The notes below the pieces were generated by a model. That model worked only from the letters and a program-made list of their open reading frames with translations, ran no database searches and was not told the origin of the DNA. Both the position numbers and the translations under genes were made by a program. This document shows positions 24,261 to 41,238 of a stretch of 51,710 nt of DNA, in pieces (the first letter of the stretch is position 1; every line of letters begins with the position of its first letter). This DNA comes from a virus. Where the stretch lies: the IMG/VR virus record IMGVR_UViG_3300042352_001329, positions 1 through 51,710 of that record; one strand, 5' to 3'.

Positions 24261-24494
24261 TTACCACTTAGGTTCTTCTAATGGACAAGACTCCCCTTTA
24301 GTTGCAGTCTTTGCAAAAATATAGCAGCCGCATTCTCCGCACTGTCCACTGGCTCCAAGAAATTTATCACACTCATAACAAATAGAAAGTCGTTCATTAC
24401 GAATATCATCTCCAACAAATAGCTCGTCAAAGATTCCCTTAATTTGGGTCCTAACTTCTTTAGATTTACAGTTCTTGCAATCGCTCATGTTCAA
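24261..24494 (-). CDS. Zinc-ribbon protein (DUF6171-like)
   Basis: 77 residues with cysteine pairs CKNC, CYEC and CGECGC and a final CPLEEPKW. This is the usual layout of small phage zinc-ribbon proteins of the DUF6171 type, probably binding two zinc ions. A second in-frame ATG at 24488 gives MSDCKNCKS, a likely alternative start. It overlaps the UV-endonuclease gene by 29 nt. Function unknown; may bind DNA, RNA or protein. Confidence 0.7.
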   Translation of the reverse strand: MNMSDCKNCKSKEVRTQIKGIFDELFVGDDIRNERLSICYECDKFLGASGQCGECGCYIFAKTATKGESCPLEEPKW

Positions 24495-25425
24495 GTTGAA
24501 TATAATTTTCTAATAGAGTATTATACTGCTCACGATACTTTAGAACAGCCAAGTCTTTGGCTTTTGCCTCAACCTCAATATCTAGAGTCAATCCATATGG
24601 ATTAATTTTTTCATAGATATAATCAGCATGGGATCTAGCAATAACTGACGAATCTTCAAATGTTTTCTTTGAACTAGAATAGTGAGTTAGTGGAGTACAA
24701 GACCAAGTAGATGCAGCAAGTTTTAGTGCAGCTTCTTCGGTTAGTCCACTTGTATTAAATCGATGATGATGGAAATCAAATGTAATTGGAGTTCCAATAC
24801 GAGCAGTAACTAAGTCAAATAGATCTTGAACTGAATATTGAGTAGCCTTATCATCATTTTCGACAACAAGGCGGCTTTGCGCAGAGCTGCTAAGTAGACT
24901 AAAATTTTGGCAAAAGCGGTCGGCCGCTGCTTCCTTGTCACCATAGGTTCCACCTACATGGATATTGATTGGAAATTGATGAGTAATTGGTAAACCCATA
25001 AGATCCATAATTTCTGCATGCTGATTTAAATCTTTGACAGTTTTTGTAACAACGCTTGGATTTGGCGAAGGTAAAACGTCGAATTGACCAGGGTGCATCG
25101 ATAACCTGATATTATTAGCTAGTACAAAAGCACCGATTGCTTGCATATCTGGTAAAATTTCCTTGAAATTTGGAAGTTCTTGAATTTTGTATTCTGACAT
25201 CCATGGAAAAACGTCGCTTGACATACGATAAACATATATGTCATTTGCTAAGTTCCATTCTAAGATAGTTAGAATATCCTTGATATTTTGATGGGCCAAC
25301 TCGCCACAATATTGCACACCCTTTTGCTGAAAGGTTTTTTTAATCATTCCACGATTTGCAGTAACTTTTCTATCTAGTGATAGGTTAATGCAGCAATATC
25401 CAAGGCGAGTTGTTTCATTTATCAT
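24466..25425 (-). CDS. uvsE: UV damage endonuclease (UvsE/UVDE)
   Basis: 319 residues of TIM-barrel type. LGYCCINL near the start, YRMSSDVFPW, LSMHPGQFDVL, NIHVGGTYGDK, LVVENDDK, FDFHHHRFN and LDIEVEAKAKDLAVL occur in family order and provide the metal-binding H, E, D residues and the modified-lysine position. The enzyme nicks DNA on the 5' side of UV photoproducts and other lesions. It is nearly full length for the family. The TAGTATATTA promoter is 6 nt from the ATG, so its message should be leaderless. Confidence 0.95.
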   Translation of the reverse strand: MINETTRLGYCCINLSLDRKVTANRGMIKKTFQQKGVQYCGELAHQNIKDILTILEWNLANDIYVYRMSSDVFPWMSEYKIQELPNFKEILPDMQAIGAFVLANNIRLSMHPGQFDVLPSPNPSVVTKTVKDLNQHAEIMDLMGLPITHQFPINIHVGGTYGDKEAAADRFCQNFSLLSSSAQSRLVVENDDKATQYSVQDLFDLVTARIGTPITFDFHHHRFNTSGLTEEAALKLAASTWSCTPLTHYSSSKKTFEDSSVIARSHADYIYEKINPYGLTLDIEVEAKAKDLAVLKYREQYNTLLENYIQLEHERLQEL

Positions 25426-34991: not shown

Positions 34992-35001
34992 TTTATTTAT
35001 C
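34992..35001 (-). promoter_or_regulatory. Late-type promoter motif
   Basis: Minus-strand GATAAATAAA, ending 21 nt before the ATG at 34970; overlaps the stop of the glycosyltransferase gene. Confidence 0.6.
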
Positions 35002-36076
35002 TAAATGGAAACAAGTTTGAAATACATTTAGAGTAGATGGAAGCTCGGTCAGAAGGGCTCGAATCTTTAAAAAATGCTAAGATTTCCTCAAGTTTACGTA
35101 AATCTGTGAATCCTAGAGCTTCATGAATACGATTATCCATATAGGAAACAGGAATTGCTCCAAATATAAGACTTTCGTATACTCGAGCAGGATAAAATCC
35201 TCGCTCTACATATAAGTCCTTTGAAATATTTAGACTAATAGTTGAACTTGCATATTCATTCCAAATATCAGTACGATCTGTCCTTTTTATTAGTTTAATA
35301 TTTTTTTCATGAAAAGCCTCAGCTAAGGTTGGGTCAAGCTTTCCAGCAATAGATACATCATACTTCTTACCAGTAAACGACTTAAAATCAGCTGACCCCT
35401 TTATTGCATCTACTACAATTGGGTTTTTTGCATGACCTGCTTTATAGTTACCAAATGAAATATTACCATAATAGAAAACTTTATCATTTCTTTCAAATCT
35501 GTCAGTTTCTTCTAACCAAACCTTTTCGCAGGCTTTAATAAAGTCCTTAGACACATTTGGATAATCAATTGATGGAATTTCAAATGTTATTCCATGGGAC
35601 TTACAAAAATCAACAAACTCTGGATCAAGTGAAAGATCTGTATCTAATATTACAACTTTATGGGCTTGGCCAGTTTGGATTGCTGCACTAATTAATAGTT
35701 CAAACTGTTTTGCATCAGTTAACTGCTTAGTTAAGGTTGAAAGATTTCGGAATCTTGCCTTTAGGAAGATCTTATCATATCGACCCTTTTCAATATTTTC
35801 TGCAACTTTACCAAACCCTAAATTATATGATCTGATTCGCTCTTTAGTAAATCGTTCAAAAACTGGAGTTACTGGGCTTTTAGGCCAAACCGGAGATTTA
35901 TGCATTTCACCAACTTGATCATGTGATAAGTAGGAATAAAAATCGACCTTATCAATATGGTGATGATTACATAACTGATCAATCAAACCGATTTGATAAA
36001 AAGTATGGCCTGGAATATCAGTTGAAAAATCTCCAAGATATCCAAAATATGCATAAAGTGCAGATGGGGTATTCAT
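34997..36076 (-). CDS. GT-B-type glycosyltransferase
   Basis: 359 residues from the start at 36076 (MNTPSALYAYFGYLG), preferred because the TATAAT motif sits 6 nt upstream. Two Rossmann-like halves are visible; KKYDVSIAGKL near 237 starts the second, and SLNISKDLYVERGFYPARVYE then IFGAIPVSY (about 292-325) holds the sugar-nucleotide-binding E and the family GAIPV end. The overall plan recalls T4 DNA beta-glucosyltransferase and other GT-B enzymes. It may glycosylate phage DNA, surface glycans or proteins; the acceptor is not predictable. Neighbour of an FkbM methyltransferase. Confidence 0.72.
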   Translation of the reverse strand: MNTPSALYAYFGYLGDFSTDIPGHTFYQIGLIDQLCNHHHIDKVDFYSYLSHDQVGEMHKSPVWPKSPVTPVFERFTKERIRSYNLGFGKVAENIEKGRYDKIFLKARFRNLSTLTKQLTDAKQFELLISAAIQTGQAHKVVILDTDLSLDPEFVDFCKSHGITFEIPSIDYPNVSKDFIKACEKVWLEETDRFERNDKVFYYGNISFGNYKAGHAKNPIVVDAIKGSADFKSFTGKKYDVSIAGKLDPTLAEAFHEKNIKLIKRTDRTDIWNEYASSTISLNISKDLYVERGFYPARVYESLIFGAIPVSYMDNRIHEALGFTDLRKLEEILAFFKDSSPSDRASIYSKCISNLFPFR

Positions 36077-36082
36077 ATTTTT

Positions 36083-36089
36083 ATTATAC
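36083..36089 (-). promoter_or_regulatory. Early-type promoter motif, leaderless spacing
   Basis: Minus-strand GTATAAT; TATAAT, 6 nt, ATG at 36076. Preceded by a TTTTTTG stretch about 17-19 nt upstream that could be a -35-like element. Confidence 0.5.
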
Positions 36090-36117
36090 AATAATTTCAT
36101 CATAGGATTACAAAAAA

Positions 36118-38787: not shown

Positions 38788-41238
38788 TTATTCCATAGTT
38801 AAGCTATTTGCCATCTTATTATGGGAGATTGCTCTTTCTACAACATATGTATGGGCATCTTCTACTTCAATTTTTATTACTTCGGCCTCTCCAATTGATT
38901 CGATTGATGAAATTTCAACCAAGCCATCCAAAGTTTCAATTAGGTCTCCTACTGCAAGATCAGAAATTCTAACGTATTCCTCATCTACTGTTAAGAATTT
39001 ATGACTTTCTGATACATCAACTGAGTGCTCTCCAAATTTAACTCTAACAACTGGCTGAATAATAGGTTCAGCTGATTCAATCGCATAGTAACCCCATTCT
39101 CCAGTATGTTCGTGAATTGTATAGATTTGAGTACCTTTTACCAATTCGCCAGCTTTGATCCAAGAGTCTTCTCCAGTTAAAATTAGCATGCTTGGAACTG
39201 GGCAACCTCCACCATAACCTCCACCTGAACCGCCATATGCACCAGTTGAACCATATCCACTGCTGTATACTGGGCGAGTAAGTTTAACTGGATTGTCAGT
39301 TGCAGCAACATCTCTAATTGAATTAGCTGATGCCGAAACTGTTGCTTGAACAGTTGATGCTTTTAAGTTTGTATTTTCAGCTTCAAGTTGAGATATTCTT
39401 TCCTTAAGTGATGTGATTGTATCTGCTAAATCTACCTGTTTTTTAGCATCAAGTAACTCAGCTGAATTATCATCGGCAGCTTTTGTAATATCATCAGATT
39501 TATACCATTTTCCAGTATAAAGCGCTGAACGGCTTCCATCCTTTCCTACCGTAACTATATAGAATTTAGGATCATCTAAGCTTTGAATTTTAGCAGTAGT
39601 TGTTGCATCAACTTTAAAAAGTATTTCACCAAGATCTGAATTAACTTGATCTTGACTTGTAATATTGCTTATGCTTATCTTAGATGCAGCTGAGCCAAAT
39701 ACTAATTCAAACCCACTAAATTGAGTTAGATCCATGTTATTTAGCTTAGTTGTTCCTTGATTAGTAGTAGATTCAGTTTTTACCTGAAACTTAAATGTAT
39801 TATCAAATGGAGTTACCGCAATTGATAACTTACCTTGACCAAATGCAAGATCTAGCTTTTTACCAGATCTAACTAAGTGATTGACTTGAGAAACTGCAAT
39901 TGTATTTTGTGTGTAAAAAACTGGAACGTATTGAGTAACGGTATTAGTTATTACAGTTGGCTCAACGGTTGGCGTAGTTATTGCAGTCGCAGTTGATGCA
40001 GCAGGTCTAACCATTGAAGGATCACTAAATACCTGAACAGAATCAGTTAATTTCTTTACTATTATATTAGAAATTTTATATGAATTTGGTTTATCTGCAA
40101 GATCCAATTTAAGTAAAGATTTACCATACTTATTTGGATTAACTATTGTAAGAGATGCAGTTCTAATAATTTGTTCGTTTGTTACTCTATTTACAAGTCT
40201 AACTGAATAGTCGACTACCATTGTAACAGCTTCATTTGCATTTTTAAGAATAGGTCTAAAAACTATAGGTTCATCGAAATTAGTTTCTTGAAAGAATGTT
40301 GCATCTCCACTTTTAACAAAGGTTGATCCAATTTGTTCAAATATTGAAAGTTGGTGAAAAATTATCCAACTTTGACCACTTCTTTTTTCTAAAATTCCAA
40401 TAAATTCTTCTGGAAAACCCTGATTCCATGTTGCAAAAAATTCAAGATAATCTCCATCGACTGCTTCTCTAATTTTTGCTCCAACTAAATCAAAATCATT
40501 AGTTTGTGCAATTTGAGCATTGTAGGTACGGGTAATATCTAATGTTGTGTATAATTCGTCTTCAGTTTTTATATCTGGTCCGAATGTACACTCAAATAAA
40601 TTTATAGTAATAGGATTGTTTTTAACTAACCCTACTCCACCTGTTAATTGATATTCAAATGTATTTGCTTGATTTGGAGAAGTATAAAATGCCTCATCCA
40701 TATTTTTTATTGATGGAATAATTATGTCAATATATCGGTCATACATCGTATTTCCAATAATAAATGGACGAGTTGTATAGAGTAAAATATCACCAATTGT
40801 TGTTGCATTTAACAAAATATTTGCTAGAATTAGTGTATTACCATCGTTCATATCTTGTCTAACTGACAGTGCCATATTGGTAAAATCTGTAAACTGGAAT
40901 CCTGATGCAATATAGAATCTTGCACGGTCTCCAATGATAGATCCTCCAGGTACAACTGTTTCAGTAAGAGTAGTATCATACTCAGTATAGTTAGGACTAT
41001 TTTCTGAGTCTAAATAAACAAACCTACCTCCATTGGTAGACAATGGGATAATAGTTAGGTCCTTGATATTACCGGTTTCATATAGTGCAGAATCTGGATT
41101 ATACACAAATATTTCATTATCGCCAGTTTTTAATGTATAAAATGGCGAAGTTATTAGAATCGGACTTGATGGCGAAAGAGACTCATACTGATACTCTAAT
41201 AGGCAATATTCCGTTAACTTAACAAATCTAGATTGCAT
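38788..41238 (-). CDS. Structural (neck/fibre-like) protein with C-terminal Hint domain
   Basis: 816 residues. Residues 1-590 are beta-rich, like a fibre or neck structural protein; residues about 610-640 are a coiled coil. A glycine/tyrosine linker (about 655-678) leads to C679, which begins a Hint (hedgehog/intein) domain: PSMLILTGEDSWIKAGELV, ESHKFLTVDEEYV, then DAHTYVVERAISHN ending at N807. Only nine residues (KMANSLTME) follow. The +1 residue is lysine, not C, S or T, so true splicing is unlikely; N-terminal thioester-driven cleavage or a modified C-terminus is more likely. A TAGTATAGA motif is 6 nt before the ATG. Confidence 0.82.
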   Translation of the reverse strand: MQSRFVKLTEYCLLEYQYESLSPSSPILITSPFYTLKTGDNEIFVYNPDSALYETGNIKDLTIIPLSTNGGRFVYLDSENSPNYTEYDTTLTETVVPGGSIIGDRARFYIASGFQFTDFTNMALSVRQDMNDGNTLILANILLNATTIGDILLYTTRPFIIGNTMYDRYIDIIIPSIKNMDEAFYTSPNQANTFEYQLTGGVGLVKNNPITINLFECTFGPDIKTEDELYTTLDITRTYNAQIAQTNDFDLVGAKIREAVDGDYLEFFATWNQGFPEEFIGILEKRSGQSWIIFHQLSIFEQIGSTFVKSGDATFFQETNFDEPIVFRPILKNANEAVTMVVDYSVRLVNRVTNEQIIRTASLTIVNPNKYGKSLLKLDLADKPNSYKISNIIVKKLTDSVQVFSDPSMVRPAASTATAITTPTVEPTVITNTVTQYVPVFYTQNTIAVSQVNHLVRSGKKLDLAFGQGKLSIAVTPFDNTFKFQVKTESTTNQGTTKLNNMDLTQFSGFELVFGSAASKISISNITSQDQVNSDLGEILFKVDATTTAKIQSLDDPKFYIVTVGKDGSRSALYTGKWYKSDDITKAADDNSAELLDAKKQVDLADTITSLKERISQLEAENTNLKASTVQATVSASANSIRDVAATDNPVKLTRPVYSSGYGSTGAYGGSGGGYGGGCPVPSMLILTGEDSWIKAGELVKGTQIYTIHEHTGEWGYYAIESAEPIIQPVVRVKFGEHSVDVSESHKFLTVDEEYVRISDLAVGDLIETLDGLVEISSIESIGEAEVIKIEVEDAHTYVVERAISHNKMANSLTME

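Follow-up and report, generated by a model that had tools for sequence, protein, structure and literature searches.

Introduction

Type A bacterial intein-like (BIL) domains form a thioester at Cys1, are cleaved by Asn cyclisation and can ligate their flanks through the freed alpha-amine (aminolysis), without a nucleophile at the +1 position (PMC4031507). A later review describes A-type BILs as able to cleave but unable to ligate (PMC7765530), and the efficiency of BIL ligation is therefore debated. For the BIL2 domain of the ciliate BUBL proteins, an isopeptide bond to a lysine in the domain's own C-flank was reported (PMC8616854). In the present study, we analysed a viral DNA stretch of 51,710 nucleotides (hereafter the window), positions 1 to 51,710 of the IMG/VR virus record IMGVR_UViG_3300042352_001329, in which a gene for a protein of 816 amino acids ends in a Hint domain followed by a lysine. 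We found that this junction lysine was conserved across a large family of phage Hint domains, and that the domain moved between genes as a module.

Results

The Pfam profiles PF14890 (E-value 0.0016) and PF13403 (E-value 0.05) both matched the window protein below the cut-off, and the PF14890 scan of the window failed to detect the Hint domain. PF07591 (PT-HINT) did not match the window protein, and two of its relatives were above the Pfam cut-off. A profile built from 80 relatives and searched against the PDB matched CthBIL4 (2LWY, E-value 1.9e-13) followed by BUBL BIL2 (6Y75, 1.1e-12), both ranking ahead of all inteins and mini-inteins. The AlphaFold2 model of the domain had a confident Hint/intein fold, with a pLDDT (predicted local distance difference test) of 89.7, and in Foldseek it matched inteins and BILs, including DnaB mini-inteins, BIL2 and CthBIL4, at E-values of 1e-10 to 1e-8 and TM scores of 0.7-0.8. 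Because the profile E-values, the pLDDT and the Foldseek E-values lie far beyond chance, the presence of a Hint domain was confirmed. The first-pass annotation of the window had placed it from C679 to N807, followed by nine residues of which the first is K808; the translation of the open reading frame (ORF) agreed with these coordinates and residues exactly.

Cys1, the block B His, the His-Asn and most of the AHTY motif were invariant among the 80 aligned relatives. The invariance of DAHTY and His-Asn is partly by construction, as both were built into the DNA search pattern for many members; that pattern contained neither Cys1 nor the block B His, and the members found through the CPxPxM/HExTGxW pattern had neither DAHTY nor His-Asn in theirs. 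The domain was assigned to the Hint superfamily by its fold, N-terminal Cys and block B His, and to the type A BILs by the His-Asn at its C-terminus, the absence of Cys, Ser or Thr at +1 and the A-type BILs as its closest PDB profile matches. The likeness to bacterial intein-like domains drawn in the first-pass annotation was thus borne out. A class 1 intein was rejected because of the +1 lysine and the C-terminal, linker-flanked and variable insertion site. A Hedgehog (Hog) Hint was rejected because His-Asn was present and the nine residues after the domain leave no sterol-binding region, whereas a PT-HINT pretoxin was rejected by the same nine residues and the missing PF07591 match. A role in toxin release was rejected as nothing else follows the Hint.

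The junction was examined with a hidden Markov model built from the Hint alone, with the flanks excluded, which gave 94 representatives at <80% identity. The frequency of lysine at +1 to +5 was 0.45, 0.49, 0.04, 0.04 and 0, respectively; the binomial P of 3e-76 for this enrichment ignores relatedness and is not to be taken literally. Six of the 94 contained no lysine from +1 to +3, and five of these had Cys, Ser or Thr at +1, as true inteins do. The sixth, a divergent Hint near the left end of locus L024, ends in HN-VYATLQCEI and stands beside a lysine-bearing member. Among 84 full-length non-redundant members, nearly all from uncultivated phages, lysine was found at +1 or +2 in 82 and at +3 in the other two, and the +1 residue of the lysine-bearing members was K, I, V, A, L, Y, R, M or F. 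Apart from lysine at +1 or +2, no feature of the C-flank was conserved throughout the family.

Arginine took the place of the junction lysine in none of the 84 members, and 26 of 27 Arg-rich Hints contained the lysine. Since arginine never substitutes, even in Arg-rich Hints, an amine appears to be needed and not just a charge. The Hint tree showed no loss of the lysine and at least nine switches of its register between +1 and +2 (an approximate count, the tree having a short alignment and many weak forks), which argues for reach and not for a fixed backbone position. Of the members from bacterial genomes, all seven whose junction could be read contained the lysine as well. As controls, the canonical inteins of the same search contained C, S or T at +1 and no junction lysine, and only 1 of 22 distinct myxobacterial PT-HINT junctions contained one (scores taken from motifs that end in Asn; L225, L232, L235 and one off-frame match were excluded).

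The Hint domain was found to be a mobile, exchangeable module. Between the window and L001, the Hint block was 94-97% identical in DNA with a synonymous divergence (dS) of 0.17, whereas the remaining gene was 62-88% identical with a dS of 1.15 over the first 400 codons. L005 contained no Hint, yet was 97-99% identical to L001 across most of the flanks. The exchanged block started at TRPVYSSG in the linker (~39279) and ended at HNK; the lysine is thus carried along with the domain, and the tail is left behind. The nonsynonymous divergence of the Hint was 0.024 against a dS of 0.168, indicating purifying selection. Orthologues of the body without Hint were found in L004-L007, L196, L198-L200 and L203. 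L197, a body relative (66%), reaches its right contig end inside a Gly-rich linker (GYGSSGGYSGSGGSY) resembling the pre-Hint linker of the window, and may carry a Hint as well.

Viral contigs, scanned by profile and by pattern, yielded 33 loci together with at least 119 stretches that matched, and a tighter pattern gave 8 matches in 257 gigabases of bacterial genomes, several in tail-like genes and presumably of prophage origin. Annotated phage records held almost no members; the relatives found there were canonical inteins or intein-like inserts (in terminase, portal and other genes), except for one uncultured faecal phage. Among the carriers were tail fibre proteins, central fibre J, a lambda I-type tail assembly protein, a collagen-like protein and a cysteine-rich repeat protein. 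In about half of the members, the protein ended no more than 20 residues past the Asn; in the others it ran on for up to ~1000 residues. In a literature search, with many subscription papers outside its reach, no published account of phage Hints sharing a junction lysine was found, and this large family is apparently undescribed. The phage group of the window contained a second Hint gene (L016-L019 and L034, four contigs), encoding a cysteine-rich repeat protein of ~440 amino acids with a C-terminal Hint 45-48% identical to that of the window and tails of RK or VK. A single 2008-amino-acid ORF in L116 encoded two Hints of this kind, and L067 and L081 contained two Hints per locus.

The features of the Hint gene are given in Table 1. 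Cys679 is encoded at 39204-39202 and directly preceded by GGSGGGYGGG; Asn807 is encoded at 38820-38818, preceded by Ser-His and followed by KMANSLTME and the stop codon. The body found no match in Pfam, NCBIfam or PHROG, and its AlphaFold2 model was poor (pLDDT 35.6, with nine sequences in the input) and unsuited to structure search. Its homologue in Flavobacterium phage MaF61 sits between genes annotated as baseplate. Synteny between the window and MaF61 extended to the 816-amino-acid protein and a guanylate kinase only. The body (residues 1-600) is likely a virion protein, the label structural coming from gene context.

Table 1. Coordinates of the Hint gene and its parts in the window
Feature	Coordinates	Strand	Content or basis
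ORF of 816 amino acids	41238..38788	minus	body (residues 1-~600), family not matched, and C-terminal Hint module
Residues ~600-636, predicted to form a coiled coil and lying between body and linker	39331..39441	minus	weak TSC22/ZapB-type matches at 603-636 and sequence
Gly-rich linker, residues 653-678 (LTRPVYSSGYGSTGAYGGSGGGYGGG)	39205..39282	minus	translation
Hint domain C679-N807 with Cys1, block B His (SESH), AHTY and His-Asn	38818..39204	minus	sequence, AlphaFold2, profile
Lys808, the +1 residue	38815..38817	minus	Lys at +1 or +2 in 82/84 relatives
Variable short tail MANSLTME	38791..38814	minus	outside exchanged block

The window contained T4-type terminase, PhoH and sigma factor genes. 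Homologues of the body and its neighbours were found in phages of Flavobacterium, Chryseobacterium and Prevotella, and the host is therefore likely one of the Bacteroidota. An FkbM-type methyltransferase (PF05050; 36159-36977) and a 368-amino-acid protein (34997-36103, minus strand) lie downstream of the Hint gene in the presumed structural region and possibly modify virion glycans. A phage-encoded UV-endonuclease UvdE was found at 24466-25425 on the minus strand (PF03851, E-value 4e-58).

Discussion

Judged from its sequence, the domain very probably removes itself. Cys679 would take the acyl group of Gly678 as a thioester, and the Hint domain would be freed when Asn807 cyclises. The junction lysine (K808 in the window, +1 or +2 in the relatives) would then receive, on its amine, the acyl group from the Gly-rich end of the body. 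In the product, the C-terminal glycine of the body would be bonded to either the short tail or an adjacent subunit, probably by way of the lysine side chain. Because an amine is required, +1 or +2 is tolerated and the lysine travels with the Hint, the lysine is most simply explained as the acyl acceptor, a role to which we give an even chance. The first-pass annotation had concluded from the +1 lysine that protein splicing was not expected. A canonical +1 nucleophile is indeed absent; the conclusion was too strong, as type A BILs ligate without one (PMC4031507) and BUBL BIL2 was reported to form its isopeptide with a C-flank lysine (PMC8616854). The informative part of the junction is the lysine itself, and that annotation overlooked its conservation, the exchange of the module and the many tail-protein carriers in unrelated phages.

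We infer that the reaction occurs, with the lysine as acceptor and an isopeptide bond as product, and that it has a biological use. As a whole, this reading, a type-A-BIL-like self-excision on a probable tail or baseplate protein with the junction lysine as acceptor, seems to us about evenly poised. Several observations weigh against it. The residues right after the Hint of BUBL BIL2 are Met-Gln, and its reported acceptor lysine lies further in. The rejoining of tails of just 4-12 residues has no obvious purpose. Hint-free orthologues exist (L004-L007), and processing is therefore dispensable to the basic role of the protein. The tail had a pLDDT of ~54 in the AlphaFold2 model, at which the geometry of the lysine is unreadable.

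The main rival is another role of the lysine in ordinary BIL cleavage, in which the domain would excise itself as a type A BIL, the body would be left free at Gly678 or ligated through the alpha-amine of the tail, and the lysine would aid, for example, Asn cyclisation or the holding of the tail. This mechanism is documented for BILs (PMC4031507), and the C-terminal region of the body is variable like the surroundings of BILs. However, it leaves unexplained why lysine is never replaced by arginine and is free to stand at +1 or +2, and other Hints ending in His-Asn, such as the myxobacterial PT-HINT, do without the lysine; we consider it rather unlikely, though the best placed of the alternatives.

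An improbable alternative is that the Hint helps or times the folding or assembly of a fibre and is then cut off, as S74 is, so that the chemistry after cleavage would be irrelevant. The fibre, tail assembly and collagen-like carriers fit this explanation, and auto-cleavage by S74 is known in jumbo phages (PMC7824862). Yet there are orthologues without Hint, no chaperone role is known for Hints, which are compact and made of a single chain, and many members run on for 60-1000 amino acids past the domain. More doubtful still is a Hedgehog-like transfer of the body end, from a thioester kept until the virion meets an external amine or hydroxyl, perhaps at the surface of the host; attachment to another molecule by ester or amide exchange had been suggested by the first-pass annotation. 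Cys1 is intact and exposed tail proteins are among the carriers, but His-Asn is kept, unlike in Hedgehog, a lysine is built in, and no additional acceptor-binding region lies past the Hint. Least probable of all is a remnant or selfish intein useless to the phage; patchy presence and recent transfer among related phages fit it, whereas there is no endonuclease, the site is non-conserved and linker-flanked, and selection keeps the catalytic residues and the junction lysine across highly diverse carriers.

If self-excision with the lysine as acceptor is true, phages cut and covalently reconnect the ends of tail proteins through lysine, by means of a self-contained and energy-free domain. The isopeptide chemistry reported for one ciliate BIL would extend to a large viral family, a role would be gained for Hint domains mostly missed by annotation pipelines, and new protein-ligation tools could follow. 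More tentatively, and at somewhat less than an even chance, the family may be a widespread phage intein-like class in which lysine at +1 or +2 replaces the Cys, Ser or Thr nucleophile and excision yields a tail protein linked through a side chain, for isopeptide splicing or cross-linking of virion proteins. The conserved lysine renders the question testable by one point mutation and one mass spectrum.

Among the known systems, the phage S74 C-terminal autoproteolytic chaperone is likewise a self-cleaving C-terminal domain on fibre-like virion proteins, whereas its catalytic residues are Ser-Lys and its fold is not known to be related to Hint. PT-HINT (PF07591) is also a self-processing Hint, and its Pfam cut-off is passed by some relatives, though not by the window protein; it differs in the toxin domain after the Hint, which the window protein does not contain, and in junctions without lysine (21/22). 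Type A BILs such as CthBIL4 (2LWY) share the fold, Cys1, the block B His, His-Asn, the absence of Cys, Ser or Thr at +1 and the adjoining variable linkers, whereas the phage family has the conserved lysine at +1 or +2, phage tail and structural proteins as carriers and, in about half of the members, only a few residues past the domain. BIL2 of Tetrahymena BUBL1 (6Y75, 6TMM) differs in being eukaryotic, in lying between ubiquitin-like domains and in its Met-Gln at +1 and +2 with the acceptor lysine further in. It was nevertheless the second-best profile match; its reported isopeptide to a C-flank lysine (PMC8616854) parallels the reaction proposed here, and its glycine-ended acyl donor with the RGG motif (PMC9200820) resembles the Gly-ended body of the phage protein.
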